The translations under genes were made by a program, and so were the position numbers. A stretch of DNA of 64,000 nt from Streptomyces sp. TS71-3. GTDB lineage: Bacteria; Actinomycetota; Actinomycetes; Streptomycetales; Streptomycetaceae. Below the pieces are notes generated by a model that saw only the letters and a list, made by a program, of their open reading frames with translations, was not told the origin of the DNA and made no database searches. This document shows positions 28,363-45,728 of this stretch, piece after piece; the first letter of the stretch is position 1, and every line of letters begins with the position of its first letter. Location: NCBI RefSeq assembly GCF_018327685.1, contig NZ_BNEL01000003.1, forward strand, positions 434,001 through 498,000. Direction: 5' to 3'.

Positions 28363-28395
28363 TGGGGTCACTCGGGAAAGGAGGTGGTTCGGCAG

Positions 28396-28434: not shown

Positions 28435-28474
28435 GGCCCGTCATCACACTCAGTGCGGTGCCGGACCAGCGCGT

Positions 28475-28489
28475 GTGGGTATCACCCAC
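28475..28489 (+). terminator. Short hairpin after the micro-ORF
   Basis: GTGGGT and ACCCAC pair perfectly around ATC (with one further G-C/T-G pair possible at the base). It could end or stabilise the short transcript starting near 28369. Confidence 0.4.
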
Positions 28490-28784: not shown

Positions 28785-28819
28785 TCAGGGACAGATCAGG
28801 ACAGATCAGGGACGGATCA
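28785..28819. repeat. 11-bp tandem repeat containing the pdxH stop codon
   Basis: GATCAGGGACA-type units repeat with periods of 11, 10 and 11 bp. TCA (TGA in gene direction) falls at 28817-28819 (the true stop), 28806, 28796 and 28785. Confidence 0.85.
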
Positions 28820-29608
28820 GGGATAGAGCCGTTCGATGCGCCACGCGCCCGCGGGGGTGCGGATGTAGCGCAGCCGGTCGTGCAGGCGGTTCTCCCGGCC
28901 CTGCCAGAACTCCACCGTCTCCGGCGCGATCCGGAAACCGCCCCAGTGCGGCGGCGCGGGCACGGACTCGCCCTCCGGGTAGCGGGTGACCAGCTCCTCG
29001 TAGGCGCGGTCCAGCTCCGCGCGCGAGGCGACCTCCGAGGACTGCTCGCTGGCCCAGGCGCCGAGCTGGGAGCCGTGCGGCCGGGTGCGGAAGTAGGCGG
29101 CGGTCTCGTCGCGGCCGGTGCGGGACACGGTGCCCGTGACGACCACCTGGCGGGCCATCGGGTGCCAGGGGAAGACCAGCCCGACACGGGGGTTCTCGGC
29201 GAGGTCCCGGGCCTTGCGGGAGGTGTAGTTCGTGTAGAAGACGAAGCCCCGCTCGTCGTACTGCTTGAGCAGCACCGTCCGGGAGCTGGGGCGCCCCTCG
29301 GCGTCCGCGGTGGAGACGATCATGGCGTTGGGCTCGTACAGGCCGCCCTGCTCCGCGGCGCGTACGGCCTCCTCGAACCACCGCGCGAACTGCTCCATGG
29401 GCGCCGTTGCGAGATCGGCCTCGGACAGGCCCTCGGCGCGGTAGTGGGCGCGCATCTCGGCAGGATCGGCCGCGCCGGGCGGCACCGCCACCGGGGGGTG
29501 GGCTGCGGCGTCGATGGCGGCGGCGTCGGCCGCGGCGGCTGCGGCGGCAGCCGTGTCCGCGGCGAGGTCGGCTGGGGTGGCGTCGGCTGGGTGCGCACGG
29601 TCTGTCAC
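28817..29608 (-). CDS. pdxH: Pyridoxamine 5'-phosphate oxidase
   Basis: 263 residues. After an Ala-rich N-terminal tail of about 45 residues comes the FMN split-barrel domain: [52 protein letters not shown]. The C-terminal PdxH region is [20 protein letters not shown] and LHDRLRYIR. It oxidises PNP/PMP to PLP with FMN in the cytosol. Divergent from citrate synthase. The Ala tail is encoded by GCG/GCC runs and is absent from the catalytic core. The stop is embedded in an 11-bp tandem repeat. Confidence 0.96.
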
Positions 29609-29713
29609 GCAGTCATCTTGCCGTACGGACTGCCTCGGGCGGTGGTGAGGGCCCGTACGCGTTTCCGGTTCGGTGCGGGGGTGAACGGCGGGCGACGAGG
29701 GTGACGGACGCAG

Positions 29714-29742
29714 TTCAATGACTACTCATAACTTCGTAGCCT
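29714..29742 (+). promoter_or_regulatory. Possible promoter of the citrate synthase gene
   Basis: TTCAAT (29714-29719), 17 bp, TAGCCT (29737-29742), in an AT-rich patch of the divergent region. It would give a leader of about 135 nt that contains the 24-bp repeats. Confidence 0.4.
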
Positions 29743-29803
29743 GCATGTGGACCGTTCGCGGTACCGACCGCCGTTTCCGGCGCATCGACCGCACCATCGG
29801 CCG

Positions 29804-29867
29804 ACTCACCACCGCACCATCGACCGCACTCACCACCGCACCATCGACCGCACTCACCATCGACCGC
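29804..29867. repeat. 24-bp tandem repeats in the leader of the citrate synthase gene
   Basis: ACTCACCACCGCACCATCGA plus 4 bases occurs twice perfectly (29804-29827, 29828-29851) and once in a shortened form (29852-29867). ACTAAGGAG, the ribosome-binding site, follows directly. The repeat number sets the leader length. Confidence 0.85.
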
Positions 29868-29883
29868 ACTAAGGAGCCCGCCC

Positions 29884-30999
29884 GTGTCCGACTTCATACC
29901 GGGTCTCGAAGGGGTCGTCGCCTTCGAGACGGAGATCGCCGAACCCGACAAGGAAGGCGGCGCCCTGCGCTATCGCGGCGTCGACATCGAGGACCTGGTG
30001 GGCAACGTCACCTTCGGCCACGTGTGGGGGCTCCTCGTCGACGGGTCCTTCGACCCGGGCCTGCCGCCCGCCGAGCCGTTCCCGATCCCCGTGCACTCCG
30101 GCGACGTACGCGTGGACGTCCAGGCCGCCCTCGCGCTGCTGTCGCCCGTGTGGGGCCTGAAGCCGCTGCTCGACATCGACGCGGAGCAGGCCCGCGCCGA
30201 CCTGGCGCGGGCCGCCGTGATGGCGCTGTCGTACGTGGCCCAGTCGGCGCGCGGGCAGGGGATGCCGATGGTGCCGCAGCGGGAGATCGACAAGGCAGGC
30301 AGCATCACGGAGCGGTTCATGACCCGCTGGCGGGGCGAGCCGGACCCGCGGCACGTGGCCGCCGTCGACGCGTACTGGACGTCGGCCGCGGAGCACGGCA
30401 TGAACGCGTCCACGTTCACCGCGCGCGTCATCGCCTCCACGGGCGCGGACGTCTCCGCGGCGCTGTCCGGGGCGGTGGGCGCCATGTCCGGGCCGCTGCA
30501 CGGCGGCGCGCCGTCGCGGGTGCTCGGCATGATCGAGGAGATCGAGCGCACGGGCGACGCGGAGGCCTACGTGCGCGGGGCGCTGGACCGCGGTGAGCGG
30601 CTGATGGGCTTCGGCCACCGGGTCTACCGGGCCGAGGACCCGCGCGCGCGGGTGCTGCGGCGCACGGCGAGGGAGCTGGGCGCGCCGCGGTTCGAGGTGG
30701 CCGAGGCCCTGGAGCGTGCGGCACTCGCGGAACTGCACGCGCGCCGGCCGGATCGGGTGCTGGCGACGAACGTGGAGTTCTGGGCGGCGATCGTGCTGGA
30801 CTTCGCGGAGGTGCCGGCGAACATGTTCACGTCGATGTTCACGTGCGCGCGCACGGCGGGGTGGGCGGCGCACATCCTGGAACAGAAACGGACCGGCCGC
30901 CTGGTCCGTCCGACGGCCCGGTACGTGGGCCCCGGCCCCCGGGCGGTGGCCGACGTCCCCGGCTTCTCCGGGACGGCGGCTCCGCAGCCCGGCGACTGA
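29884..30999 (+). CDS. Citrate synthase, type 2/short form
   Basis: 371 residues. GALRYRGVDIEDLV is the N-terminal family signature. SGPLHGGAPSRV carries an active-site His, MGFGHRVYRAEDPRARVL the second His, and VLATNVEFWAAIVLD the catalytic region. The chain is shorter than hexameric GltA (about 430), as in the citrate synthase/2-methylcitrate synthase group. It condenses acetyl-CoA (or propionyl-CoA) with oxaloacetate. GTG 29884 with AAGGAG. The gene is not in the downstream catabolic operon, but could use its acetyl-CoA. Confidence 0.92.
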   Translation: MSDFIPGLEGVVAFETEIAEPDKEGGALRYRGVDIEDLVGNVTFGHVWGLLVDGSFDPGLPPAEPFPIPVHSGDVRVDVQAALALLSPVWGLKPLLDIDAEQARADLARAAVMALSYVAQSARGQGMPMVPQREIDKAGSITERFMTRWRGEPDPRHVAAVDAYWTSAAEHGMNASTFTARVIASTGADVSAALSGAVGAMSGPLHGGAPSRVLGMIEEIERTGDAEAYVRGALDRGERLMGFGHRVYRAEDPRARVLRRTARELGAPRFEVAEALERAALAELHARRPDRVLATNVEFWAAIVLDFAEVPANMFTSMFTCARTAGWAAHILEQKRTGRLVRPTARYVGPGPRAVADVPGFSGTAAPQPGD

Positions 31000-31071
31000 G
31001 GCTGTCCGCGGGACGGGCGCGGGGCCGGTCGCGAGGGGGCCGGCCGCTTCGGGGCGTCCCCCACTGCCTGA

Positions 31072-31151
31072 AGGGGTCCTTGCACCATGCCCGCCCGGGT
31101 CGCGTGGCCTGGCACCGCGCCCTATCGGACGCTCATGGTGCAAGGACCCCT
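31072..31151. mobile_element. MITE-like element, family 2, copy D (internally deleted)
   Basis: 80 bp with 18-bp perfect terminal inverted repeats (AGGGGTCCTTGCACCATG). The interior keeps both subterminal parts of copy C (GGCCTGGCACCGC and ATCGGACGCTCAT) but lacks its middle. It splits a REP-like palindrome: CCCCCACTGCCTGA on the left and AGGGCGTGGGAGGTGCCCCC on the right. Confidence 0.85.
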
Positions 31152-31273
31152 AAGGGCGTGGGAGGTGCCCCCAGACCTGACGGTCTCGTCGCGGCTGGTC
31201 GCGCCCACCCGGGGGAGCCACACAATGTCAGGGCCCCGCGCCCCTCGGTGGACCGGGGCGAAGCCCCGCGTGC

Positions 31274-31873
31274 TCACCCCAAAGCCTCGTCCAGCAGTGC
31301 CGCCCACTGCCTCACCACCCGCTCCCTGCGCGGGGTGTCGTCCGTGAGGAGTGCCGCGAGGCCCAGGCCGCGGGCCATGTCCAGGAGGCCCTGGACGGTC
31401 TCCCTGGCGCCGGGTACGGACTCGTCGACCCCGAGCAGTTCCACGGCGATGCGGTGAGTGTCGCGGCCGACCCTGGCCTCCAGCTCGGTGACCCGCACGC
31501 GGAGCAGGTCCTCGTGGGCGGCGGCCGTCCAGAGCTGGAGTGCGGCCTTGAACAGCGGGCCGGTGAAGAGGTCGACGAGGGCGGCGACGACGGCCCTGCG
31601 GTCGTGCGTGCCGTCCGGGAACAGTGCGCGCAGTGCGCTGGAGCGCTGCTCGGCCACGTACTCGACGGCCGCCGTGAAGAGGTCCTCGCGGGTCGGGAAG
31701 TGGTGCTGGGCGGCGCCCCGGGAGACGCCCGCGCGCTCGGCGACCACGGCGACGGTGGAGCCCGCCCAGCCGTGCGCGGCGAGGCAGGTCACGGCGGCCT
31801 CCAGGAGCCGCTGCCGGGTCAGCCGGCTGCGGTCCTGCTTCGGCGTGCGGTCCGCCGCGGTCACCGTGCCCAT
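31274..31873 (-). CDS. TetR-family repressor, likely of the acyl-CoA operon
   Basis: 199 residues. The HTH is at about 15-60 (TRQRLLEAAVTCLAAHGWAG, VAERAGVSRGAAQHHFPTRE). The C-terminal ligand domain is divergent. It is the last gene of the minus-strand operon, 4 bp after the hydratase. TetR proteins of acyl-CoA operons usually bind an acyl-CoA and autoregulate; the palindrome at 42837-42854 is a candidate operator. Confidence 0.92.
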   Translation of the reverse strand: MGTVTAADRTPKQDRSRLTRQRLLEAAVTCLAAHGWAGSTVAVVAERAGVSRGAAQHHFPTREDLFTAAVEYVAEQRSSALRALFPDGTHDRRAVVAALVDLFTGPLFKAALQLWTAAAHEDLLRVRVTELEARVGRDTHRIAVELLGVDESVPGARETVQGLLDMARGLGLAALLTDDTPRRERVVRQWAALLDEALG

Positions 31874-31877
31874 GCCG

Positions 31878-32615
31878 TCACCGTACCCACGCCGGATCCC
31901 GCCGCTCCATGAACGCCGCCATCCCCTCGCGGGCCTCCGCGGAGCCGAACAGGCGGGCCGTGAGCGCCGCCATCGCGTCGCCGCCCGACCCGAAGGCCTC
32001 CAGCACGCGCGCGTTGACGAGCTGCTTGGTGGCCCGCAGCGCCTGAGGCGCGGCCTTGCGCAGACCGTCGAGGACGGGGGCGAGCGCGGCGTCGACGTCC
32101 TGTGCGGCGGCCGTCAGCAGCCCGATCCTGGCCGCCTCCGGGGCGTCGAAGCGCTCGCCCGTCAGCCAGTAGCGGCTCGCGGCCCGCGCGTCGAGGCGTG
32201 GCAGCAGCGGCAGGCTGATGAGCGCGGGGGCCACCCCGAGGCGCACCTCCGTGAACGCGAACGTGGCCTCCGGGCCCGCCACGGCGATGTCGCACGCGCC
32301 GAGCAGCCCGAGCCCTCCCGCGCGCGCGTGCCCGGTGACCCGGGCGACGACGGGCTTGTCCAGCTCCAGCAGCAGCCGCAGCAGCGCGAGGACCGCGTCC
32401 GGGGCCGGCGGGTCCTTCAGGTCGGCGCCCGCGCTGAACGTGGACCCGGAGTGCGTGAGCACGACCGCGCGCACGTCGCCGTCCCCGTCGGCCTTGTGCA
32501 GTGCCTCCGTCAGGGCGCTCACCAGGGACCTGGACAGGGCGTTGCGCCGCGGGTGGTCGTCGAGGGTGAGGACGGCGACACCGCGCTCGTGCGCCGTCCT
32601 GAGGGGTTCGGTCAC
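31878..32615 (-). CDS. Enoyl-CoA hydratase/isomerase (crotonase family)
   Basis: 245 residues. GSTFSAGADLKDP is the first oxyanion-hole segment, ARAGGLGLLGACDIAVAG the second, and FTEVRLGVAP holds a conserved catalytic Glu. The other usual Glu of the GGG-x-E-L motif is replaced (GLGLLG), so the activity may be altered. It should hydrate the enoyl-CoA or glutaconyl-CoA intermediate of the operon's pathway. GTG 32615 is chosen for GAGGAG upstream; longer frames to 32720 are not protein-like. Confidence 0.88.
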   Translation of the reverse strand: MTEPLRTAHERGVAVLTLDDHPRRNALSRSLVSALTEALHKADGDGDVRAVVLTHSGSTFSAGADLKDPPAPDAVLALLRLLLELDKPVVARVTGHARAGGLGLLGACDIAVAGPEATFAFTEVRLGVAPALISLPLLPRLDARAASRYWLTGERFDAPEAARIGLLTAAAQDVDAALAPVLDGLRKAAPQALRATKQLVNARVLEAFGSGGDAMAALTARLFGSAEAREGMAAFMERRDPAWVR

Positions 32616-32724
32616 GGGCGGCTCCTCACATCGGTGCGGGCGGTGCGGGGCGGGGCGGCGCACGGCCGCTGGGCCCGCCCGGGGGCGACGCCACGCGCGC
32701 GTGGCGTCGCCGTGCGGCACGCGG

Positions 32725-34362
32725 TCACGGCAGGCTCCTCAGTTCCCGGCGGAGGATCTTCCCCGACGCCGCGCGGGGTATCTCGCCGATGAACTCCACC
32801 CTCCTGATCTTCTTGTACGGCGCGACGCGCTCGGCCGCCCAGGCCATCACGGAGTCCGCGGTGAGAGCGGACTCGGCGGACCCGGCGGACCCGGCGGACC
32901 CGGCGGCGGGCACGACGTACGCCTTGGGGATCTCGTTGCCGTCGTCGTCCACGACGCCGACGACCGCCGCGTCCGCGATCCCGGGGTGGCCGAGGAGCAG
33001 CGCCTCCAGCTCCGCGGGCGCGACCTGGTAGCCCTTGTACTTGATCAGCTCCTTGACGCGGTCCACCACGTACAGCCAGCCCTGCCCGTCGGCGTACCCG
33101 ACGTCCCCGGTGTGCAGCCAGCCCGCCTCGTCGATCATGGCGGCGGTGGCGTCGGGCCTGCCCAGGTAGCCCTTCATCACCTGCGGGCCCCGGAAGGCGA
33201 GTTCCCCGGGGACCCCGGCCGGGACGTCCGCCGCCGGGTCGTCGAGCGACAGGACGCGCATCTCGGTGCTCGGCAGCAGCCGGCCGACGGTGCCCGCGGG
33301 CACGTCCCGCGCGTCCAGCGGGACGACGTGCGTGCCGGGCGACAGCTCCGTCATCCCGTAGGCCTGGGCCAGGTGCGGCAGCCCGAGCCGCTGCGCGCAC
33401 TCCTGGGCGAGCGCGCCGTCCAGGGGCGCGGCGGCGCTCAGCACGAACCGCAGCGACGACAGGTCGTAGCGGTCCACCGCCGGGTGCCTGGCGAGCGCCA
33501 GGACGATAGGCGGGGCGACGTACAGGCCCGTGACGCGGTGCCGTTCGATGGCGCCGAGGAAGGCCTCCAGGTCGAAGCGGGGCAGGACGACGACGGTGGC
33601 GCCGCGCCGCAGAGGGTGGTTCATCAGCGCCGTCAGGCCGTAGATGTGGAAGAACGGCAGCACCGCCAGGATCCGCTGGCCGGGGCCGAGCGGCATCACC
33701 GGGTCGAGCTGGGCCAGGTTGGTGGCGATGGAGCGGTGCGTGAGCATCACTCCCTTCGGGGTGCCGGTGGTGCCCGAGGAGTAGGGCAGCGCGGCGATGT
33801 CCTCACAGGGGTCGACGGCCGGCAGCGCGGGACCGGGCGGGGTGCCGGGCGCGTCGCGGTCCGCGTCACCGGGATCCGCCGCGCCGAGGTCGCGCAGCGA
33901 GCGGTGGCCCTCGGCGCGGTCGGTGACGAAGACCTCCCGGATGCCGCCGGCCCGTTCCGCCGCGGCCCGTGCGACGGGCGCGAGCGCGCCCACGGTGACG
34001 ATCCACCGTGCGCCGCTGTCGGCGAGCTGCCGGGCGAACTCCTCGGCGGTGGAGAGCGGATGGATCAGGGTGACCGGTGCGCCGGCGCGCGCGGCGCCGT
34101 AGAAGGCGGCCGGGTAGTCGATGGTGTTGGGGCTGTGCAGGGCCAGCACGTCGCCCTTGCGGACCCCCGCGGCGGCCAGTCCCGCGGCGATCCTGCGGTG
34201 GTCGGCGTCGAGTTGCGCGTAGCCGACGGTGGTGCCGTCGGTGCCGTCGATCAGCGCGGGGGCGTCGCCCCGGGCCGCGGCGCCGCCCAGGACGGCTTCG
34301 TGGATGGGCAGTTCGACGGCCGGAACGTCTGTGTAGTGGCTGTAGCGGCTGGACAGGACCAC
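32725..34362 (-). CDS. Acyl-CoA synthetase (4-coumarate-CoA ligase-like)
   Basis: 545 residues. The AMP-binding P-loop is YSSGTTGTPKGVMLTH. Further motifs are QAYGMTELSPGTH, LHTGDVGYADGQGWLYVVDR, KELIKYKGYQVAPAELE and RAASGKILRREL with the catalytic Lys. It activates a carboxylic acid as its CoA thioester through an acyl-AMP. A Gly/Ser/Ala repeat, AGSAGSAGSAESA, near 505-520 is a local expansion. GTG with GAGGAG. It provides the entry step of the operon. Confidence 0.94.
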   Translation of the reverse strand: MVLSSRYSHYTDVPAVELPIHEAVLGGAAARGDAPALIDGTDGTTVGYAQLDADHRRIAAGLAAAGVRKGDVLALHSPNTIDYPAAFYGAARAGAPVTLIHPLSTAEEFARQLADSGARWIVTVGALAPVARAAAERAGGIREVFVTDRAEGHRSLRDLGAADPGDADRDAPGTPPGPALPAVDPCEDIAALPYSSGTTGTPKGVMLTHRSIATNLAQLDPVMPLGPGQRILAVLPFFHIYGLTALMNHPLRRGATVVVLPRFDLEAFLGAIERHRVTGLYVAPPIVLALARHPAVDRYDLSSLRFVLSAAAPLDGALAQECAQRLGLPHLAQAYGMTELSPGTHVVPLDARDVPAGTVGRLLPSTEMRVLSLDDPAADVPAGVPGELAFRGPQVMKGYLGRPDATAAMIDEAGWLHTGDVGYADGQGWLYVVDRVKELIKYKGYQVAPAELEALLLGHPGIADAAVVGVVDDDGNEIPKAYVVPAAGSAGSAGSAESALTADSVMAWAAERVAPYKKIRRVEFIGEIPRAASGKILRRELRSLP

Positions 34363-34399
34363 GGCGGCTCCTCACGGCCAGACGGTGGGCGTGGCGGGC

Positions 34400-35587
34400 T
34401 CAGTAGGACTTGGGCAGGCCGAGGCTCTGGTGGGACACGTAGTTGAGGATCATCTCCCTGCTGACCGGCGCGATCCTGGCCACCCGGGCCGCGGTGATCA
34501 GCGACGCGATGCCGAACTCGCTGGTCAGGCCGTTGCCTCCGAGGGTGTGCACCGCCTGGTCGACGGCGCGCACGCACGCCTCCCCCGCGGCGTACTTGGC
34601 CATGTTCGCGGCCTCTCCCGCGCCGGCGTCGTCGCCCGCGTCGTACAGGCGGGCCGCCTTCTGCATCATCAGGCGGGCGAGCTCCAGCTCGATGTGGGCC
34701 TGCGCCAGGGGATGCGCGATGGCCTGGTGGGCTCCGATGGGAGCCTGCCAGACGGAGCGCTCCTTGGCGTACGCCACGGCCCGGTCGAGCGCGTAGCGGC
34801 CCATGCCGATCGCGAACGCGGCGGTCATGATGCGCTCGGGGTTGAGCCCGGCGAAGAGCTGGAGCAGGCCGGCGTCCTCGTCCCCGACGAGCGCGTCCGC
34901 GGGCAGCCGCACGTCGTCCAGGACCAGCTCGAACTGCTTCTCCGCGGCGTTCAGTTCCATGTCTATCCGCCGCCGCGAGAAGCCCTCGGCGTCCCTCGGG
35001 ACGACGAACAGGCACGGCTTGAGCTTGCCGGTGCGGGCGTCCTCGGTGCGGCCGACGATCAGCGTGGCGTCCGCGATGTCGACCCCGGAGACGAACACCT
35101 TGCGGCCGGTCAGCAGCCAGTCGCCGGTGGCCTCGTCGCGGCGGGCGGTGGTGGTGATGCGGTGCGAGTTGGAGCCCGCGTCGGGCTCCGTGATGCCGAA
35201 CGCCATGGTGCGGCTGCCGTCGGCGAGCGCCGGCAGCCACTCCGCCTTCTGGGCGCCGGTGCCGAAGCGGGCGATGACGGTTCCGCAGATGGCGGGCGAC
35301 ACGACCATCATCAGCAGGGGGCAGCCCGCGGCGCCGAGTTCCTCCAGCACGAGGGAGAGCTCCTGGATGCCGCCGCCCCCGCCGCCGTACTCCTCGGGGA
35401 GGTTGACGCCGAGGTAGCCGAGCTTCGCCGTCTCGCGCCACAGTTCGTCCGGGTGTCCGCCGGCGCCCACCACGGACGTCATGTAGGCGCGGCCGTAGCG
35501 CCTGCCGAGCGCGGCGACGGCGGCGCGCAGGTCCCGGTGTTCCGCGCTTTCGTCGCTTTCCTGAGCCGTGCTGCGAGCGGTGCTCAT
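34400..35587 (-). CDS. Acyl-CoA dehydrogenase
   Basis: 395 residues. N-terminal helical domain (LGYLGVNLPEEYGGGGGGIQ), beta domain (MAFGITEPDAGSNSHRITTT, DWLLTGRKVFVSGVDIADA), and C-terminal helical domain (TLGGNGLTSEFGIASLITAA). It is an FAD enzyme that forms an alpha-beta double bond in the acyl-CoA, probably citronellyl- or isovaleryl-like from context. Its ATG overlaps the stop of a 24-codon mini-ORF (ATGA), with GGAGGAG inside that mini-ORF. Confidence 0.94.
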   Translation of the reverse strand: MSTARSTAQESDESAEHRDLRAAVAALGRRYGRAYMTSVVGAGGHPDELWRETAKLGYLGVNLPEEYGGGGGGIQELSLVLEELGAAGCPLLMMVVSPAICGTVIARFGTGAQKAEWLPALADGSRTMAFGITEPDAGSNSHRITTTARRDEATGDWLLTGRKVFVSGVDIADATLIVGRTEDARTGKLKPCLFVVPRDAEGFSRRRIDMELNAAEKQFELVLDDVRLPADALVGDEDAGLLQLFAGLNPERIMTAAFAIGMGRYALDRAVAYAKERSVWQAPIGAHQAIAHPLAQAHIELELARLMMQKAARLYDAGDDAGAGEAANMAKYAAGEACVRAVDQAVHTLGGNGLTSEFGIASLITAARVARIAPVSREMILNYVSHQSLGLPKSY

Positions 35588-35658
35588 CGGGGCATCTCCT
35601 CCGTGCTCTTCGCGGGCAGGTCTTCCGTGCTCTTCGCGGGCAGGTCTTCCGTGCTCAT
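35584..35658 (-). CDS. 24-codon mini-ORF bridging carboxylase and dehydrogenase genes
   Basis: Reads MSTEDLPAK, then STEDLPAK, then STEEMPR, stop. Its ATG overlaps the carboxylase stop (TGATG) and its TGA overlaps the dehydrogenase ATG (ATGA), so a ribosome could pass through all three. The 24-bp repeat (35600-35647) makes the peptide repetitive. Its first residues mimic the MST start of the next protein, suggesting it arose by duplication of that start region. Translation is unproven. Confidence 0.5.
   Translation of the reverse strand: MSTEDLPAKSTEDLPAKSTEEMPR
35600..35656. repeat. 24-bp tandem repeat between carboxylase and dehydrogenase genes
   Basis: TCCGTGCTCTTCGCGGGCAG plus GTCT at 35600-35623 and 35624-35647 are perfect copies, followed by a partial third. 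Weaker related pieces (CCGTGCTCTTCACGGGC, CCGTGCTCTCCGCGGGC) continue into the end of the carboxylase coding sequence to about 35710. Confidence 0.88.
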
Positions 35659-37943
35659 CAGGGCGTCTGGTCCGTGCTCTTCACGGGCGCCCCCGTGCTC
35701 TCCGCGGGCGACTCCTCCGTGACGACGGCGAGGAGCGTGCCGGACTCGACCTGGTGGCCCAGGGCGGCGTGCAGGGCGGTGAGGGTGCCGGTGGCCGGCG
35801 CGGTGACGGTGTGCTCCATCTTCATCGCCTCCAGCCACAGCAGGGGCGCTCCCGCGGTCACCCGGGCCCCTTCCGCGACGCCCTCCGCGAGGCGGACGAC
35901 GGTGCCCGGCATCGGGGCGAGCAGCGATCCCGGCGGGCGTTCCTCCGCGGCCGGCAGCGGCAGGCGGGGCAGCGCGGTGAGGGCGGTGTCGCCGACCCAC
36001 ACCCGCGCGCCGCGCACCGTGACGTCGAACGTGCGCCGCACGCCGCCGGCTTCGAGCACGACGCGGTCCGCGGCGGCGCGCAGGACGCGGATGTCGTGGG
36101 CGGGGGCGGTGCCCTGGGCCGCACCTGGGGCCGCACCCTGGGCTGTGCGTCCCTCCGGTTCGGTACGCAGGACGTCCTCGACCACGAGCCCGTCGCGGGT
36201 GTGCCGGTAGCGGACCTCGTACTCGGTGCCGTCCGGCTCGCCGCGGTACCGCCTGGCCTGCGGCTGCGAGGGGACGTTGCGGAAGCCGCCGAAGCGCGAG
36301 CGGCCCTGGGCCGCGGCCACCGCGGCGGCCACCGGGGCGAGCGGGTCGGGGGCGGCGGCGGTCAGCTCGCCCAGGTGGCGTTCGTAGAAGCCGGTGTCCA
36401 TGCGGCCGGCGGCGAACTCCGGGTGCCGCAGCGACCGCAGAAGCAACTCCCTGTTGGTGACGAGGCCCTGCACGCGTGCGTGCTCCAGCGCCCCGGCGAG
36501 CCTGCGCACCGCCTCCGCGCGCGTGGGCGCCCACGCGACCACCTTGGCGAGCAGCGGGTCGTAGTGCATGCCGACGCGGTCGCCGTCCTCGTACCCGGTG
36601 TCGAGCCGCAGGCCCCGTCCGCCCGCTCCCGCTCCCGTGCTCCCTAGGGCGAACGGTCCGGTGGTGCTCCCTAGGGCGAACGGTCCCGGGGTGCTCCCCG
36701 TGGCACCGGCACCGGCACCGGCACCGGGGGCGCCCTGGGTGGCCGTCCCCGGCACGGCGCCCGGGACGTGCAGGCGGTGCAGGACGCCGGTGGACGGGGC
36801 CCAGCCCCGGGCCGGGTCCTCGGCGTAGAGGCGGGCCTCGACGGCGTGGCCGCGCGGGGCCGGCGGGGCGCCGGCCCCGGGGACGGCGGCACGGTCGGCA
36901 ACGTCAGCGTCAGCATGGTCGGCAGCAGCGGACGAGTCCGCGCCCTCGTACAGGCGCCGGCCCTCGGCGATCCGGATCTGCCAGGCGACCAGGTCGAGCC
37001 CGAACACGGCCTCGGTGACCGGGTGTTCCACCTGGAGGCGGGTGTTCATCTCCAGGAAGTGCACGCGCGCGTCCGCGCCGCCGTCGTCCCCATCAGCCGG
37101 AGCCACGGCCCCTTCTCCCCCAGCGCCTTCCCCGATCCCGGCCCCTTCGTCGATCAGGAACTCGACCGTGCCCGCGCCGACGTACCCGGTGGCCCGCACC
37201 GCGCGCTCGGCGGCCTCGGTGAGGCGCCGCACGAGGCCCGGGGCGAGACCGGGTGCCGGGGCCTCCTCGATCACCTTCTGGTGGCGGCGCTGGAGGGAGC
37301 AGTCGCGGGTGCCGAGGGTCCACACGGTGCCGTGCGCGTCGGCCAGCACCTGCACCTCGACGTGCCGGCCGCCCTCGATGTACGGCTCGACGAACACCTC
37401 GCCGTCCCCGAACGCGCTCGCCGCCTCGGCGCGCGCGGCGGCCAGCTCCGCGTCCAGCGCGGCCAGGTCCCGGACCACCCGCATCCCGCGCCCGCCGCCG
37501 CCCGCAGCGGCCTTCACCAGCACCGGCAGGTCGTCCTCGGTGAGTGCGGCGGGGTCGGTCACCACGGGGACGCCCATGAGCTTCTTGGCGACCGTCTTGG
37601 ACGCCATCGCCTCGATGGCCTCCGGCGGCGGGCCGACCCACACCAGGCCGGCGCCGGTGACCGCGCGCGCGAAGTCCGCGTTCTCGGAGAGGAAGCCGTA
37701 TCCGGGGTGCACGGCGTCCGCGCCCGCCGCGAGGGCGGCCTTCACGACGAGGTCGCCGCGCAGGTAGGTGTCCGCGGGGGCCTCCCCCGGCAGGCGTACC
37801 GCGGAGTCGGCCACGCGCGCGTGCAGCGCGTCGGCGTCCGCGTCCGAGTACACCGCCACGGTGGCGATGCCCAGGTCGCGGCAGGTGCGCACGATCCGGC
37901 AGGCGATCTCGCCGCGGTTGGCGACGAGCAGGGAGGTGATCAC
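35658..37943 (-). CDS. Acyl-CoA carboxylase alpha subunit (biotin carboxylase + BCCP)
   Basis: 761 residues. Biotin carboxylase is at about 1-500 (LLVANRGEIACRIVRTCRDL, KAAAGGGGRGMRVVRDLAAL as the ATP-grasp loop, FLEMNTRLQVEHPVTE). The biotinyl domain is at the end (LWLEAMKMEHTVTAPATGTL, Lys biotinylated). It resembles MccA/AtuF. Three low-complexity inserts interrupt the biotin carboxylase: about 278-300 (EGAGGEGAVAPADG), 340-365 (SSAAADHADADVADRAA) and 400-450 with a 27-bp DNA repeat giving TGPFALGST twice. It works with the beta subunit encoded just upstream in the operon. Confidence 0.94.
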   Translation of the reverse strand: MITSLLVANRGEIACRIVRTCRDLGIATVAVYSDADADALHARVADSAVRLPGEAPADTYLRGDLVVKAALAAGADAVHPGYGFLSENADFARAVTGAGLVWVGPPPEAIEAMASKTVAKKLMGVPVVTDPAALTEDDLPVLVKAAAGGGGRGMRVVRDLAALDAELAAARAEAASAFGDGEVFVEPYIEGGRHVEVQVLADAHGTVWTLGTRDCSLQRRHQKVIEEAPAPGLAPGLVRRLTEAAERAVRATGYVGAGTVEFLIDEGAGIGEGAGGEGAVAPADGDDGGADARVHFLEMNTRLQVEHPVTEAVFGLDLVAWQIRIAEGRRLYEGADSSAAADHADADVADRAAVPGAGAPPAPRGHAVEARLYAEDPARGWAPSTGVLHRLHVPGAVPGTATQGAPGAGAGAGATGSTPGPFALGSTTGPFALGSTGAGAGGRGLRLDTGYEDGDRVGMHYDPLLAKVVAWAPTRAEAVRRLAGALEHARVQGLVTNRELLLRSLRHPEFAAGRMDTGFYERHLGELTAAAPDPLAPVAAAVAAAQGRSRFGGFRNVPSQPQARRYRGEPDGTEYEVRYRHTRDGLVVEDVLRTEPEGRTAQGAAPGAAQGTAPAHDIRVLRAAADRVVLEAGGVRRTFDVTVRGARVWVGDTALTALPRLPLPAAEERPPGSLLAPMPGTVVRLAEGVAEGARVTAGAPLLWLEAMKMEHTVTAPATGTLTALHAALGHQVESGTLLAVVTEESPAESTGAPVKSTDQTP
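36628..36702. repeat. 27-bp tandem repeat inside the biotin carboxylase gene
   Basis: GTGCTCCCTAGGGCGAACGG occurs twice with a 27-bp period and partially before and after. It keeps the frame and encodes TGPFALGST repeats in a surface-loop insert. CCTAGG is a rare AT-step site here. Confidence 0.75.
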
Positions 37944-38031
37944 CGTTGGCTTACCGTCCGTTCGTCCGACATACCGTCCGTCCCGTCCCGATACCGCTGT
38001 CGTGTCGTGTCCTGTTCTCTGTCCTGTCGCG

Positions 38032-38078
38032 TCACGGCGCCGTCCTCCCCGTCGCTCACGGCGCCGTCCTCCCCGTCA
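38032..38078. repeat. 24-bp tandem repeat containing the beta-subunit stop codon
   Basis: TCACGGCGCCGTCCTCCCCG occurs at 38032 and 38056 (24-bp period), then TCA at 38076-38078 is the gene's stop. Each copy thus starts with another TGA in gene direction. The remaining spacer to the alpha subunit (37944-38031) consists of GTCCGT/GTCCTGT-like short repeats. Confidence 0.85.
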
Positions 38079-39680: not shown

Positions 39681-41803
39681 TGGGGCTCCTCGGAGCGGGG
39701 CGTGCGGGGGGTGCGAGGGGTGGGGGGCGCGGGGGTTTGCGTCTCGGTGCCCGCGGTAGGGCCCCCGGAGGGGTCCGTGGAGGGGCCTGTGGCATGGCCT
39801 GTGGGGGGATCCGTGAAGGGATCCGTGAAGGTATCCGTGGAGGGATCCGCGGCCGCCAGCAGGTCTTCCGGGATGTCCACGTGGCGGGCGCGCAGCCACT
39901 CGCCGAGCGCCTTGGCCTGCGGGTCGAAACGGTGCCGGGCGGCGACTCCCTCGCCGAGCAGCCCCTCGACCACGAAGTTCAGGGCCCGCAGGTTGGGCAG
40001 CACATGGCGGGTGACCGGCAGGTCCGCGCACTCCGGCAGGAGGGTGCGCAGGCGGTCGGTGGTGAGGGTGCGCAGGAGCCAGTCCCAGACGGGGTCCGCG
40101 GGGTCCGTGGGGCTCGTGGGGTCCGTGTCCGTGGGGTTCGCCACCGCCCTTTGCGCGGGGCCCTGCGCGAGGCCGGGGCCCCGCGCGAGACCCTGGCGGG
40201 CCCAGACACCGATGTTGGCGTCCCCGCCCTTGTCGCCACTGCGGGCGCCCGCGAGGAGGCCGAGCGGCGCGCGGCGCGTACGAACGGCGGGCGCCCCCTC
40301 CCCACCCGCCCCCGGCGAGGTCTGCCGGACGTCCGCCTCCAACGGCTCCTGAACGGGCCGCAGTTCCCGGGTGCGGCCGGGTCCCGGTACGTGCTGCCGC
40401 CGCCCGTCCGGGAGAACGGCGACGTGCTCGACGGCGCCCTGCGCGACGTACGCCGTCTCGAACACCCCGTAGGGTGTGCCCTTCCCGGGCGGCGCGGTCA
40501 CGTGGAAGCCCGGGTACGAGGCGAGCGCCAGCTCCACCGCGGCGGCGCCGAGCGCGCGCCCCACCGCCTGCTCGTCGCGGTCGCGCGCGACCAGCCGCAG
40601 GACGGCGCTCGCGGCCTCCTCGGTGCCGGCGTCCGGGTGGTCGGTACGGGCGAGTTCCCAGCGCAGTTCGGCGGGCCGCCGCTTGCTCAGGGCGTCCTCC
40701 ATCTGCGCGCGCACCAGGTCCGCCTTGGCGTCGATGTCGAGCCCGGTCAGCACGAAGACGACCTCGCCGCGGAAGCCGCCGAGCCGGTTCAGGCCGACCT
40801 TCAGCGACGGGGGCGGGGGCTCGCCCCGGACGCCGTCGATCGCGACCCGGTCGGGCCCCTGCCGGGTGAGCCGGACGGTGTCGAGGCGTGCGGTGACGTC
40901 GGGGCCCGCGTACCGGGCGCCGGAGGTCTCGTAGAGGAGTTGCGCGGTGACGGTTCCGGTGTCGACGAAGCCGCCGGTGCCGTCCTGCTTGGTGATGACG
41001 CAGGAGCCGTCCTCGTGGAGCTCGGCGAGCGGGAAGCCGGGGTGGTGGGCGGCGCCGGGACGGTGCGACGCGAAGAACGCGTAGTTGCCGCCGGTGGCCT
41101 GGGTGCCGCACTCCAGGACGTGCCCGGCGACCACGGCGCCCGCCAGCTTGTCGTACTCCTCTGGCCGCCACCCGAAGTGCGCGGTGGCGGGCCCCGTGAC
41201 GAGGGCGGCGTCGGTGACGCGGCCGGTGACCACGATGTCCGCGCCGGCGCGCAGGCAGGCGGCGATGCCGTGGCCGCCGAGATAGGCGTTGGCGGTGACG
41301 ACGCCCTCGGGCCAGCCGCCTCGGCCGATCAGGTCGTCGCCGGTGACGTGGGCGACGCGCGCGGGTATGCCGAGGCGGTCGGCGAGCTCGCCGAGCCTCT
41401 CGGCGAGGGAGGCCGGGTTGACGCCGCCCGCGTTGGCCACGATCCGCACCCCGCGCTCGTGGGCGAGGCCGAGGCACTGCTCCAGCTGGCCGAGGAACGT
41501 CTTCGCGTAGCCCAGTGCGGCATCCCGCAGGCGGTCCCGGCCGAGGATCAGCATGGTCAGCTCGGCGAGGTAGTCGCCGGTGAGGACGTCGAGGGCGCCG
41601 CCGGTGAGCATCTCGGTCAGGGCGGCGGAACGGTCGCCGTAGAAGCCGGAGAAGTTGCCTATGCGCAGCGGTGGGGGCGGTGGGTGCTGTGAGGCCGTCG
41701 AGGGTTGCGAGGCCGTCGAGGGTTGCGAGGCCGACGAGGGTTGCGAGGCCGACGAGGGTTGCGAGGCCGACGAGGGCTGTGCGGGCGGCGGGGCCGGGCT
41801 CAC
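39677..41803 (-). CDS. AtuA-like acyclic terpene utilisation protein (DUF1446)
   Basis: 708 residues. After the start come about five PSSASQ/PSTASQ hexapeptides and a proline run, then the DUF1446 core: LRIGNFSGFYGDRSAALTEM, VRIVANAGGVNPASLAERLG, GADIVVTGRVTDAALVTGPA, FASHRPG. A C-terminal AtuA part follows (GARSGDKGGDANIGVWARQG, LNFVVEGLLGEGVAARHRFD). It is essential for citronellol/geraniol use in Pseudomonas, though its reaction is unclear. GTG 41803 overlaps the preceding stop (GTGA). The tail (DPSTDTFTDPFTDPP...) is low in complexity. Confidence 0.88.
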   Translation of the reverse strand: MSPAPPPAQPSSASQPSSASQPSSASQPSTASQPSTASQHPPPPPLRIGNFSGFYGDRSAALTEMLTGGALDVLTGDYLAELTMLILGRDRLRDAALGYAKTFLGQLEQCLGLAHERGVRIVANAGGVNPASLAERLGELADRLGIPARVAHVTGDDLIGRGGWPEGVVTANAYLGGHGIAACLRAGADIVVTGRVTDAALVTGPATAHFGWRPEEYDKLAGAVVAGHVLECGTQATGGNYAFFASHRPGAAHHPGFPLAELHEDGSCVITKQDGTGGFVDTGTVTAQLLYETSGARYAGPDVTARLDTVRLTRQGPDRVAIDGVRGEPPPPSLKVGLNRLGGFRGEVVFVLTGLDIDAKADLVRAQMEDALSKRRPAELRWELARTDHPDAGTEEAASAVLRLVARDRDEQAVGRALGAAAVELALASYPGFHVTAPPGKGTPYGVFETAYVAQGAVEHVAVLPDGRRQHVPGPGRTRELRPVQEPLEADVRQTSPGAGGEGAPAVRTRRAPLGLLAGARSGDKGGDANIGVWARQGLARGPGLAQGPAQRAVANPTDTDPTSPTDPADPVWDWLLRTLTTDRLRTLLPECADLPVTRHVLPNLRALNFVVEGLLGEGVAARHRFDPQAKALGEWLRARHVDIPEDLLAAADPSTDTFTDPFTDPPTGHATGPSTDPSGGPTAGTETQTPAPPTPRTPRTPRSEEPQ
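41691..41790. repeat. 18-bp tandem repeat at the start of the AtuA-like gene
   Basis: GAGGCCGACGAGGGTTGC and GAGGCCGTCGAGGGTTGC, about five copies. Frame is preserved; it encodes QPSSAS-type repeats directly after the start codon. Confidence 0.88.
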
Positions 41804-42612
41804 CGGGGGCCGTCCGTCCCGTCGGAGGGCGTTCCCGGCGCGCGGCCCTCCCCCGGGGGACCCGCGAAGGCCTGGGCGATGTCGAGCCACTCGTCGGCGT
41901 CGGGGCCGTCCGCGTGCACGTCCACGTCCGAGCGGTGCGCGCGCTGGGTGACGAGCAGGCAGAAGTCGACGGCGGAGCCGGTGACGCGCTGGGCGGCGTC
42001 CTCGGGGCCGTGGGCCCAGACCTCGCCCGAGGCGGCGGTCAGCTCCACCCTGAACTCCTCCTCGGGTGGCCGCAGTCCGTGCACCAGGTAGGCGAAATCC
42101 CGTGCCCTGACGCCGATCCGCACCACGTGCCGCAGCCGATCGGTGGGCTCCCGGACCACGCCGAGGGTGTCGGCGACGTCCTTGCCGTGCGCCCACGTCT
42201 CCATGATCCGCCCGGTGGCCACGCCCGCGGGGGACATCGGCGGCCCGTACCAGGGAAACCGCGTCCCGTCCGGCGCCGCCCGCAGCAACCGCTGGAGCTC
42301 CTCGCGGCCGGCGCGCCAGCGGGCCATCAACTCGGAGGGGAGCAGCACCGCGCCGGCCTGTGCGGCGTCGTCTATGTACGTGTCCGGGGCCGCGGCGGCC
42401 TCCTCGATCTGGGCCGCGAAGGCGTCCGTGTCGGTGGCGGCGAGCAGCGCGGCCCGGTCGGTCCAGGCGAGGTGGGCGATCTGGTGGGCCACGGTCCAGC
42501 CGGGTGCGGGGGTCTCCGCGGCCCACTCGCGCGCGGAGAGCCCGCTCACCAGCTGGTCGAGCTCCTCGCTCTCGGCACGCAGGTCGTCGAGCACGGGGCG
42601 GGGGTCGGACAC
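41800..42612 (-). CDS. TIGR03084-family protein (DinB/MDMPI-like)
   Basis: 270 residues. LDDLRAESEELDQLVSGLSA, TPAPGWTVAHQIAHLAWTDR and GRIMETWAHGKDVADTLG place the His residues of the DinB/maleylpyruvate isomerase N-like metal site. It is the first gene of the operon and typically adjoins AtuA-like genes in actinobacteria as I recall. It may be a mycothiol-dependent enzyme. GTG 42612 with AAGGAG; the upstream frame to 42840 is not credible. Confidence 0.88.
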   Translation of the reverse strand: MSDPRPVLDDLRAESEELDQLVSGLSAREWAAETPAPGWTVAHQIAHLAWTDRAALLAATDTDAFAAQIEEAAAAPDTYIDDAAQAGAVLLPSELMARWRAGREELQRLLRAAPDGTRFPWYGPPMSPAGVATGRIMETWAHGKDVADTLGVVREPTDRLRHVVRIGVRARDFAYLVHGLRPPEEEFRVELTAASGEVWAHGPEDAAQRVTGSAVDFCLLVTQRAHRSDVDVHADGPDADEWLDIAQAFAGPPGEGRAPGTPSDGTDGPR

Positions 42613-42997
42613 GGCGCGCTCCTTACGGTGCGGTGTCCCTGTGCGGGACGACGGTTCCTTGTGCGCCCGGCAGCGCTCGGCCTGGTTCCGGGTGCCTCCG
42701 GAAGTGGGCCCGGTCCCGGGGCTTGGGCGGGTCCGGATTCGGTGCCTTGGGCAGGTTCGGGGCGCGGTCCCGGGGCCGTTCCGGGGGCGGGGCAGGGCGG
42801 TATGTGCGGTGAGCATGGCACGGGGCCGGAACCAAAACAAGCATGCGTGCTTGTATTTTCACGTTGTGGTGGCGTTCCGGAAGAGGCCCCCTCTCCCTCG
42901 GCCGCTGGCGCGGAGCCACAGCCGGAAAATCCATCGAAGGCGGTGGCAAGGGGCACCTACGCTGCCGCCTTCGACGAACAGGATGTGTCAGTCGGTG
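42613..42997. promoter_or_regulatory. Operon promoter region with TetR-like palindrome at 42837-42854
   Basis: ACAAGCA-TGCG-TGCTTGT (42837-42854) is a perfect 7-bp inverted repeat with 4-bp centre inside an AT-rich patch, typical of TetR operators. It lies 225 bp upstream of the operon's first start (42612). The stretch between is filled by low-complexity GGTTCCGGG/GGGGC repeats. No gene. Confidence 0.6.
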
Positions 42998-43000
42998 TCA
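42988..43000. repeat. 10-bp tandem duplication of the GNAT stop codon
   Basis: TCAGTCGGTG at 42988 and 42998 are perfect copies. TCA 42998-43000 is the true TGA, and the copy at 42988 gives a second TGA 10 nt later. Confidence 0.85.
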
Positions 43001-43564
43001 GTCGGTGCTGCTCGGGGCCACCCTGGACGGGCCCGCGAAGTCCTCGGGCAAGGCGTCCATCAGGAGTTCATCGACGGATCGGCCGAGCCAGTACCCGGCC
43101 TTACGGAGGCGCCCGGCCTGCCGGAAGCCCGCCTTCTCGTAGGCGACGATGCCGGCCCTGTTGGGTTCCAGGACCTTGAGCCAGACGCCGCGCAGGGCGG
43201 CCAGGTTGAACGCCCAGTCGAGCGTCAGGGTGGTCGCCTCGGTGGCGTAGTGGTTCCCGCGCGCCTCCGGGGCCAGAAGAATGATGTACTCGGCTCGTTG
43301 TACAGCCTGATCGACGTAGAGCACGGTCATTCCGATGGCTTGTTCGTCCTCCAGCCGCACGACTTCGAAAGAGCGGCGCATCTCGCTCCTCGCCTGGGCC
43401 TCCCAACCGGCGGCGCGGACCTCCCAGGCCGTCGGCATCTGGGTGCCGTATCCCAGGATCGTCCCGGGATCGTTCTCCCAACGGTGGTATTCGGGCAACA
43501 GCTCCTGCCGCGGCAGGCCCAGGGCGAGCCGGTCGCCGCGCAAGAGAATGTGAGGCTGGCTCAC
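42998..43564 (-). CDS. GNAT-family N-acetyltransferase
   Basis: 188 residues. The domain resembles RimJ/RimL: LLRGDRLALGLPRQELLPEY, EYIILLAPEARGNHYATEAT (acetyl-CoA loop), TLDWAFNLAALRGVWLKVLE, NRAGIVAYEKAGFRQAGRLR. It transfers acetyl from acetyl-CoA to an amine, either a protein N-terminus or a small molecule. GTG 43564 with GAGAGGAG. It lies next to the cyclase remnant and is probably a separate unit. Confidence 0.9.
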   Translation of the reverse strand: MSQPHILLRGDRLALGLPRQELLPEYHRWENDPGTILGYGTQMPTAWEVRAAGWEAQARSEMRRSFEVVRLEDEQAIGMTVLYVDQAVQRAEYIILLAPEARGNHYATEATTLTLDWAFNLAALRGVWLKVLEPNRAGIVAYEKAGFRQAGRLRKAGYWLGRSVDELLMDALPEDFAGPSRVAPSSTD

Positions 43565-43639
43565 GGGATGGCTCCTCTCGAACCCCGGTGTCGTGGTCCG
43601 GGGCCGTCCGGTGTGCAGATCGTTGTGTACAGGGAGGTC

Positions 43640-44163
43640 TCAGGCGGCTCTTCGATCGGCCGTTCCTCCTGATCGGCAATCCATCAGCACAAGGCGGTGC
43701 CCTGCGGGCACGAGGTCGACGCCCGCCCATGCGCTCCGCCCCCGCGTCTGCCACTGGACGTCGACCAGGTACGAAGCGAGCCAGTCGACGTTGACCTGTC
43801 CTCCCACCAGACCGGAGATCGCCTGCGAACTCGCCCCCCACACCCCCCATCGGCGTGGGAAACCGTATACACCGGACAGGCCCCCGCCGCGTCTGTGATC
43901 ACTGCGACCGTGCCCATCGCGCGAGCACGTACGATCGTGAACGAGCCCGCCCACGCGTGCGCGTAGGCAGAGATGTCCGAGCAGGTCAAGGCCCCTGCAG
44001 GGGTTGCGGGGCTCGCCGGCGGCGGACCGGTCGTACGCGACTCCAAAGACCCGACGGGACCGGTGCTCGGGTTCGGTACTGCTGTGTGGTCCTCGTTCAT
44101 CCAGAGTGCAAAGGACGGTGGCTTCGGCCGCTGTCCGAAACCGTGAACAATGACGGCGCGCAC
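43640..44163 (-). pseudogene. Frameshifted, truncated lasso/albusnodin-type macrolactam cyclase (Asn synthetase-like) N-terminal domain
   Basis: Two frames join at a run of six C (43843-43848). The upstream frame gives VIVHGFGQRPKPPSF ... AWAGSFTIVRARAMGTVAVI ... DAAGACPVYTVSHADG. The downstream frame gives WGASSQAISGLVGGQVNVDW and GRSAWAGVDLVPAGHRLVL. One added G restores a continuous protein. Both parts match the glutaminase-like N-terminal domain of lasso-peptide/ikarugamycin-type cyclases. The synthetase domain (several hundred residues) is missing and homology ends near 43685. No precursor or protease gene is near. A sequencing error could explain the shift but not the truncation. Confidence 0.7.
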
Positions 44164-44268
44164 CACCCGGAGGTGACTCCGGGTGGCGACTGAGCGATTC
44201 GAGATCACCCCAGCCCGGGGGCTGGGCACTGGTGGTCCGGAACCGATACTCGCCTACCCGACCGGCGC

Positions 44269-44274
44269 TAGGCT
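44269..44274 (+). promoter_or_regulatory. TAGGCT -10 box; leaderless start
   Basis: TAGGCT ends 6 nt before the ATG at 44281 with no ribosome-binding site between, so the transcript should start at the ATG. Confidence 0.55.
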
Positions 44275-44280
44275 CGCGCA

Positions 44281-44838
44281 ATGCGACCTCTCAGATATTC
44301 CATCAACGTCACACTGGACGGCTGCTGCGACCATCGCGAAATCCTCCCGGACGAGGAATTGCACCGCCACGCGACCGAGAACATCGCCCAAGCCGATGCC
44401 CTGCTCTTCGGCCGGGTTACCTACGACATGATGGAGGCGGCCTGGCGGCCGTCGGCGCGCGCGGGAGCAACGACCGACTGGCCCGACTGGATGGAACCCT
44501 TCGCCCGGACCATCGACGCGGCGAAGAAGTACGTCGTGTCGAGCAGCCTGGAACGGGTCGACTGGAACGCGGAGTTCGTACGCGGGGACTTGCGAAATGC
44601 CGTTCAGCAGCTCAAGCAGGAGCCAGGTAACGGTCTGTTCGTGGGCGGAGTGAAGCTCCCGCTGGCCCTCGCGGAAATGGGATTGATCGATGAGTACGAG
44701 TTCGTGGTGCAGCCCAGGCTGGTAGGACATGGGCCGACGCTGTTCGCGGGGCTGTCCAAGCAGGTCGACTTGAGGCTCGTGGGCCGGTGGGAGTTCGGCT
44801 CGGGGGCCGTCGCGATGCGGTACGAACCGAAAGGGTGA
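44281..44838 (+). CDS. Dihydrofolate reductase-family (RibD C-terminal-like) protein
   Basis: 185 residues. LRYSINVTLDGCCDHREILP, ADALLFGRVTYDMMEAAW, KKYVVSSSLERVDWNAEFV, GLFVGGVKLPLALAEMGLID and EYEFVVQPRLVGHGPTLFAG are the signature blocks of the YwjB/YyaP-like RibD-C group. Members bind NADPH; physiological reactions are mostly unknown. Probably leaderless. Confidence 0.9.
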   Translation: MRPLRYSINVTLDGCCDHREILPDEELHRHATENIAQADALLFGRVTYDMMEAAWRPSARAGATTDWPDWMEPFARTIDAAKKYVVSSSLERVDWNAEFVRGDLRNAVQQLKQEPGNGLFVGGVKLPLALAEMGLIDEYEFVVQPRLVGHGPTLFAGLSKQVDLRLVGRWEFGSGAVAMRYEPKG

Positions 44839-44956
44839 CGCCGGGGAGGCCGTGAGCGGCGTTCCCGGACTCCCCCGGTTTCCGTACGCCCCCGTGCCCT
44901 TTGAGTGCCCGGATGAGTACCCGTACGGATAGCAGCAGCCCATCCGCTGGAAAACG

Positions 44957-45697
44957 ATGGCCGCCATGACCACCACCTCGCGGGTCGCCATGCCGGTCGC
45001 GGCCGTTCTGCTGCTGGTCCCCGCGCTCGCCGCCTGCGGGGGCGCGACCGACGGGAAGACCGTGCGCGAACTCGCCGCCGGCCCCGACGCCGTGAAGGCA
45101 CGTCAGCAGGCCGAGTCGGCCATCCGCGACACCGTCGCCGCCTGGGACACCGGCACCCCGCTCACGCTCGGCCTCCTCGCCCTGGAGGACACGTGCGCCG
45201 GCGGGACGGCGAAGGAGTGGTTCTACTCCACCGGCGACGACCGGTACAAAATCCGCTGCACCCTGTACGCCACCGCCTATTTCGGCGCCGATCCCCGCCA
45301 TATGGCCGACACGATCGACGGGATCCTCACCGCGGGGGACCGCACGGGGTCCCCCATTCCCTTCGCCCACGACTTCCAGTACGCGCGCACGGTCGTGGAC
45401 TACTACCGGGGCAGGACCGGCGACCCGCAAGGGCCGGGGACCGGCGAACCGACGCTGCTCAGCGCGGCTCCGGTCACGCTCCGATGGGACCAGGTGAAGA
45501 GCGAGGGGAACGAGGAGAGCAGGGGCAAGCGCGAACTGATCGGCGAACCCCGCCCGTGCGCACCCAGGGGCCCGCCGACGCTGCGGCGCTGCCTGCGCGA
45601 GCCGGCCTCCACCAGCGTGGCCGATCTGCGCCGCACGTACGGGATGGTGTTCGAGCTTCCCTTCGTCGCCGACGATTACTTCGTCGTCTGGAAGTGA
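44957..45697 (+). CDS. Putative lipoprotein
   Basis: 246 residues. Signal peptide RVAMPVAAVLLLVPALAAC with lipobox LAAC, so lipid-anchored at about residue 27. The mature part shows no family I recognise (VAAWDTGTPLTLGLLALEDT, EWFYSTGDDRYKIRCTLYAT). The start may instead be the ATG at 44966 (MTTTSRV). The stop is followed by two 14-bp copies of itself. Confidence 0.8.
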   Translation: MAAMTTTSRVAMPVAAVLLLVPALAACGGATDGKTVRELAAGPDAVKARQQAESAIRDTVAAWDTGTPLTLGLLALEDTCAGGTAKEWFYSTGDDRYKIRCTLYATAYFGADPRHMADTIDGILTAGDRTGSPIPFAHDFQYARTVVDYYRGRTGDPQGPGTGEPTLLSAAPVTLRWDQVKSEGNEESRGKRELIGEPRPCAPRGPPTLRRCLREPASTSVADLRRTYGMVFELPFVADDYFVVWK

Positions 45698-45728
45698 CCC
45701 CCGCGAAGTGACCCCCTGGAAGTGACCC
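45691..45728. repeat. 14-bp tandem repeat duplicating the lipoprotein stop codon
   Basis: GAAGTGACCCC occurs at 45691, 45705 and 45719, an exact 14-bp period. The first TGA (45695-45697) is the gene's stop. The array fills the 30-bp gap to the convergent SpoIIE-type gene. Confidence 0.88.

Follow-up and report, generated by a model that had tools for sequence, protein, structure and literature searches.

Tandem repeats over Streptomyces stop codons look like part of a general crop of intergenic minisatellites

Why should the stop codons of several neighbouring genes lie inside short tandem repeats? The question is raised by a window of 64,000 nucleotides from Streptomyces sp. TS71-3 (contig NZ_BNEL01000003.1, positions 434,001 to 498,000; "the window" denotes this whole stretch), in which an earlier note had listed five genes with a tandem repeat at the stop. 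The observation itself holds, since a TRF array overlaps the stop codon in all five, marginally so at the GNAT gene (score 46). The arrays and associated features are collected in the Table.

Table. Tandem arrays and associated features of the window (arrays called by TRF)
Feature	Position	Strand	Unit and copies	Remark
pdxH array	28777..28827	-	11 bp x 4.7	covers stop 28817-28819
Carboxyltransferase array	38026..38077	-	24 bp x 2.1	stop 38076-38078 at array edge
GNAT repeat	42985..43007	-	10 bp x 2.3	over stop 42998-43000; TRF score only 46, marginal
Lipoprotein array	45691..45728	+	14 bp x 2.7	over stop 45695-45697
Regulator array	16243..16418	-	27 bp x 6.6	last unit covers stop 16409-16411
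Separate array beside regulator array	16175..16224	-	14 bp	
Biotin carboxylase stop array	35580..35721	-	24 bp x 6.1	absent from the earlier list
Further stop-spanning array	31856-31894			TRF score >=40
Example of a wholly intergenic array	13671..13803	.	52 bp x 2.5	away from any stop
Ms_IGR-5 match (Rfam)	28370-28618	+		
Array abutting the Ms_IGR-5 match	28620-28685		23 bp	
39-aa reading frame	37940-38059	-		
Predicted hairpin and U run, GNAT gene end	42925-43003	-		

The PdxH protein matches the Pfam families PNPOx_N and PNP_phzG_C, and the identities of the carboxyltransferase and GNAT proteins are also backed by Pfam; a Pfam search with the regulator and lipoprotein proteins was without match, and their names are those of the earlier note. 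Comparison with orthologues bears out the ends of the PdxH, carboxyltransferase and regulator proteins. Downstream of the pdxH stop, TGA triplets repeat every 10-11 nt. The carboxyltransferase array sits within the 132-nt gap ahead of the biotin carboxylase gene, and the lipoprotein array fills the 30-nt convergent gap up to the neighbouring gene. At a TRF score of at least 40 the window contains 21 wholly intergenic and 7 stop-spanning arrays, and 7 of its 46 stops are covered, compared with 48/870 in the other 59 stretches scanned (Fisher p=0.016), an excess that fits with the pattern having been noticed here. Separately, the gap after pdxH is occupied, on the strand opposite to that gene, by a match to the actinobacterial sRNA Ms_IGR-5 (RF02471; 79.3 bits, cut-off 45), which a 23-bp array directly abuts.

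The scanned DNA comprised the window and 59 spaced 20-kb stretches, 1.24 Mb in total, from a source genome of 9.79 Mb in 3 contigs. Our own gene caller, run at a lowered threshold, gave 954 genes (79% coding), with errors and omissions among the starts and small genes; stops truncated by stretch ends were left out of the counts. Arrays were accepted in the main analysis at a TRF score of at least 50 and a period of at least 7, and the main stop profile rests on the 667 of 916 stops followed by a gap of at least 60 nt (of the 249 with shorter gaps, 9 are covered by arrays). Other stop sets were those with a gap of at least 100 nt (n=563) and those for which +100 nt still lies within the stretch (n=555). 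Stop-spanning arrays number 33 when counted as non-overlapping arrays for the null model described below, and 37 stops lie under any TRF row. Gap-type figures refer to 602 gaps of 40-600 nt.

The distribution of arrays can be read directly from this sample. Coding DNA lies under arrays for 2.2% of its length and noncoding DNA for 9.1% (score at least 50; 1.24 Mb). Along gene ends, coverage is 1.5-3.9% within the last 150 nt of genes, 6.6% at the stop (44/667), 10% at +20 nt and 15-17% from +50 to +100 nt; a peak at the stop was sought along these 667 gene ends and is absent, the profile being a smooth rise downstream. Its shape is unchanged at TRF thresholds of 40, 60 and 80, and an independent self-match scan, which misses the 27-bp regulator array, gives 3.9% at the stop against 11-12% downstream (n=563). 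Pooling six congeners yields 4.2% at stops (8/191) and 8.9% from +50 to +100 nt, and two genomes from another family yield 0/58 and 3.4%; single genomes are noisy, and in G009 the stop value (1/34), contrary to the trend, exceeds a plateau of 1.5%. Arrays are thus rarer at stops than 30-100 nt downstream across the 1.24 Mb, which contradicts the suggestion that tandem repeats are targeted to stops. The earlier note had called for a scan of repeats at stops against other positions and had named what would refute it; in the sampled 1.24 Mb that outcome is what was found, such repeats being no commoner at stops than elsewhere in intergenic DNA. In this sample stop codons are no favoured site, and the arrays over them are members of a general intergenic repeat crop.

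Are the covered stops as frequent as indifference would predict? If stop-covering duplications are neutral, stop coverage is predicted as the plateau multiplied by unit over span, because an array can cover the stop through its first unit alone. The 247 intergenic arrays give a predicted stop/plateau ratio of 0.338, and the observed ratio of 0.423 is slightly higher, yet this value lies within a bootstrap interval that includes the prediction (0.303-0.558; n=555). As the null model also predicts, 29 of the 33 stop-spanning arrays intrude into the gene by at most one unit; the other 4 go further, against the null, and the biotin carboxylase array is an exception of this kind, running about 2.5 units into its gene. 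The positions of array edges, likewise observed directly, show no spike at the stop: between -20 and +100 each 10 nt hold 7-18 of the 5' edges, as against 1-4 deeper in the gene.

Arrays are in fact a common component of intergenic DNA in this genome. In the 602 gaps they extend over 11.0% of bases, compared with 0.29% in dinucleotide shuffles, and 159/602 gaps hold an array (score at least 50) against 46/3010 shuffles. Chance composition as the source of arrays is ruled out for these gaps by the same shuffles. The array share is 16.6% in convergent, 11.8% in tandem and 7.2% in divergent gaps; convergent gaps differ from divergent (p=4e-4) and from tandem ones (p=0.002), and the difference between tandem and divergent gaps is not significant (p=0.25). 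This ranking would track the constraint expected on promoters and ribosome-binding sites. In samples of 100 kb from each of eight other genomes, arrays cover between 0.2% and 8.7% of noncoding DNA, so that the source genome tops this small sample. Within genes, arrays keep the reading frame, with 284/306 periods divisible by three. Among intergenic arrays, multiples of three also lie above one third (115/247 here and 30/56 in the six congeners), a surplus that missed coding ends may explain.

Comparison with relatives, for which one genome per species was used, indicates how quickly these arrays change. Among the best 80 of 576 PdxH relatives from named genomes, all of them Streptomyces, the closest is that of S. 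sulfonofaciens, records of near-identical genomes being possibly absent. The pdxH ends comprised 110 loci, 80 of them from these relatives and one from the source genome, and removal of one (a duplicate or short end) left 109. Stop-spanning duplications occur at 9/109 of these ends, with nine different periods, and the 11-bp unit of the window was found at none of the other 108. Downstream control positions give 9-14/109 from +15 to +60, 5/109 at +80 and 3/109 at +100; the two far controls fall below the value at the stop, which runs counter to the explanation we prefer. A control inside the gene (-60) is an outlier at 43/109, taken for a self-similar stretch of conserved coding sequence. The pdxH stop of S. 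sulfonofaciens is without a spanning duplication and has a short 8-bp array immediately adjacent. At its regulator end the same species carries a 21-bp array of unrelated unit, and inspection by eye of the first 120 nt past the regulator stop in other genomes revealed no array like that of the window. Orthologues of the lipoprotein occur in 3/41 genomes and of the GNAT protein in 6/41 (own genome included; E 1e-40), genomes G053 and G054 lacking a lipoprotein match; no like repeat over the stop was seen by eye at 2 other lipoprotein and 7 other GNAT loci.

The same turnover is apparent in whole gaps. Of the 26 gaps syntenic with S. sulfonofaciens, 16 hold arrays here and 12 in the sister species; arrays occur on both sides in 7 gaps, on our side alone in 9 and in S. 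sulfonofaciens alone in 5. About 7.4 shared gaps are expected under independence, so no positional conservation is seen in these 26 gaps. One window unit per shared gap was compared with the units of S. sulfonofaciens; the lowest shuffle p among the 11 comparisons was 0.045, with two more below 0.1, so that common descent of the units is unsupported. Proteins common to both species are about 86% identical (median). Tandem copies of a unit beyond chance, together with differences between species at one locus, are both observed, and the arrays are lineage-specific intergenic minisatellites across the genome. The view of the earlier note that the repeats reflect a recurrent process, as opposed to a single mobile element, is borne out, units differing both between loci and between species at one gene end.

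Spacing at the junction between carboxyltransferase and biotin carboxylase was measured from the carboxyltransferase stop to the VANRG motif of the protein that follows. Of 29 relatives, 17 have 23-44 nt between the two, and the remaining 12, which include paralogues (48-59% identity), have 55-117 nt. The window has 150 nt, strain ODS25 121 nt and S. sulfonofaciens 193 nt; in the last species this gap contains a separate 20-bp array, with a unit whose similarity to ours is no better than that of shuffles. In the window, a 39-aa frame starts with GTG inside the 24-bp repeat, behind a GGGGAGG stretch, and its TGA and the GTG with which the biotin carboxylase gene begins run together as GTGA (a 4-nt overlap). 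This frame may keep translational coupling over the enlarged gap, or may be due to chance. In two relatives (L140 and L160), ATGAC-type repeats were seen by eye past the carboxyltransferase stop; these may extend the following protein at its N terminus.

Several other explanations deserve to be weighed. The enlarged carboxylase gap, with a small frame that ends across the start of the following gene, recalls the mycobacterial MIRUs, mobile and dispersed repeats that insert where two genes meet. Such a repeat should recur, and no further copies of the units turned up in the 1.24 Mb: a blastn search with six window arrays returned, outside those arrays, only three 15-nt matches (E 0.039). One dispersed unit is ruled out for this sample by that result, and the unlike 20-bp unit of the sister species points the same way, so that we can hardly give this reading any credence. 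A mutational hotspot, in which stops or gene ends attract tandem duplication, for instance via termination-linked breaks, would account for the greater number of arrays in 3' than in 5' gene flanks, for their abundance in convergent gaps and for the higher coverage of stops (55/916) than of start codons (15/919; score at least 40). However, coverage climbs on beyond the stop as far as +50 to +100 nt, the 5' edges of arrays do not cluster at the stop, no significant difference separates tandem from divergent gaps, and a contrast between 3' and 5' flanks would equally be expected if promoters and ribosome-binding sites are constrained; a hotspot is very unlikely.

Selection is invoked by two further readings. 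The extra stops could be a fail-safe against leaky TGA readthrough, as the earlier note had suggested, and in-frame extra stops within 20 codons are indeed commoner at array-covered stops (13/41) than at others (78/522; p=0.013). Yet in the two other frames taken together the increase is no smaller (35/82 compared with 187/1044), as copying a TGA at arbitrary spacing would give, and an in-frame excess over off-frame stops was not found at the array-covered stops. The absence of a frame preference is a direct observation, and it extends to the periods: 16/33 stop-spanning arrays have periods divisible by three, much like the 115/247 of intergenic arrays. It agrees with Ho and Hurst (2019), who, in the part of their paper available to us, report no evidence of selection for fail-safe extra stops in eubacteria (PMC6764699). 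Units are also not conserved among pdxH ends; protection against readthrough is not supported as an explanation of the arrays, and we regard it as highly improbable. Alternatively, 3' arrays might be kept as hairpins that end transcription or protect the mRNA 3' end, especially between convergent genes, where arrays are most abundant. The stable folds of the regulator (z -5.1 against shuffles) and carboxyltransferase ends (z -2.7) do lie in the array. The other three of the five folds make no strong use of it: at pdxH (z -2.1) the main hairpin is beyond the array, the lipoprotein end has z -0.9, and at the GNAT gene (z -3.7) a strong hairpin with a U run, about 20 nt past the stop, is predicted and likely represents an intrinsic terminator outside the repeat. 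Moreover, a scan for the terminator consensus across positions 28400-46000 found 2 sites, compared with 2.7 in shuffles, and units are not conserved between sister species. A general role of this kind is very unlikely, though some arrays may act in termination.

The explanation we favour, and consider probable, is that the arrays are young ordinary minisatellites that arose by slippage-type tandem duplication and are tolerated where the protein and the start region stay intact. Intergenic stretches of about 8-60 bp would be duplicated in tandem and the copies duplicated again, for which the most likely route is replication slippage or some comparable local error of copying; slippage, already proposed in the earlier note, is the kind of cause that we infer to be likely. 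The duplications would be blind to gene ends, and selection would purge those that alter a protein or interfere with a start region. When the duplicated segment includes a stop, translation still ends in the first copy and the protein stays as it was; later copies with their own stop triplet land in the 3' untranslated region, and extra TGAs follow automatically. Stop-spanning arrays would thus persist neutrally, like other intergenic arrays, and the additional downstream TGAs look like a by-product of duplication and not a selected device.

Traces of the molecular step were also sought. A loose test for microhomology on 78 duplications gave a mean excess of 5.4 compared with 1.0, suggestive but confounded by multi-copy arrays, and a strict test on 6 cases gave p=0.14. 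Regarding mismatch repair, the source genome has a NucS match and, in a profile search, no MutS_V match; among 14 control genomes the NucS search was positive in 7 and the MutS_V search in 11. The action of MutS on loops of at least 10 nt is itself doubtful, so that this gene content is background and does not prove slippage. NucS reportedly cannot correct indels (PMC8228993), and in S. ambofaciens its loss is described as having no considerable effect on the indel rate; wild-type mutation-accumulation lines of that species acquired 9 indels of 1-4 bp, and the accessible part of the report does not mention minisatellite-sized ones (PMC11109965).

A tolerated mutation can therefore mimic design, since a duplicated stop spares the protein and adds stops automatically, and a claim of stop targeting would have implied selection on gene ends. 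Intergenic minisatellites as dense and changeable as those of this genome could be of use in strain typing, and their turnover could help to explain the variable spacing of operon genes. We would tentatively go further and suggest, as a possibility that we hold for somewhat less than probable, that the continual birth and death of minisatellites is a leading remaker of Streptomyces intergenic DNA, given about one tenth of intergenic bases in this genome, stretched operon junctions and near-complete turnover between sister species. No title on tandem repeats at Streptomyces stop codons was found in a literature search from which subscription journals were mostly absent.

How do these arrays compare with known systems? 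With fail-safe stops, in the part of that study consulted (PMC6764699), they share the presence of further stop triplets behind the first, and they differ in showing neither in-frame preference nor unit conservation. MIRU elements (PMC12548453) are likewise repeats at gene junctions, and at one junction here a small bridging frame with a 4-nt overlap, perhaps by chance, recalls them; however, they form one dispersed family described as mobile, whereas the units here are unrelated between loci. A closer parallel in habit is found in the Borg archaeal elements, for which the portion of the source at hand (PMC9879509) reports pervasive, recent and independently arisen repeats, both intergenic and genic, with coding repeats that keep frame as they do here. 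Those repeats are A-rich and perfect and occur on large extrachromosomal elements, in contrast to imperfect ones on a GC-rich chromosome, and only 14-38% of the intergenic Borg units are divisible by three, compared with 115/247 here. Bacterial minisatellites, or VNTRs, have in common with our arrays imperfect head-to-tail copies of units of about 8-60 bp, a mainly intergenic location, and presence and copy number that vary between lineages, which in the present case are species, a VNTR proper being defined by variation inside one species; the density here, at 9.1% of noncoding bases in the sample, is high.
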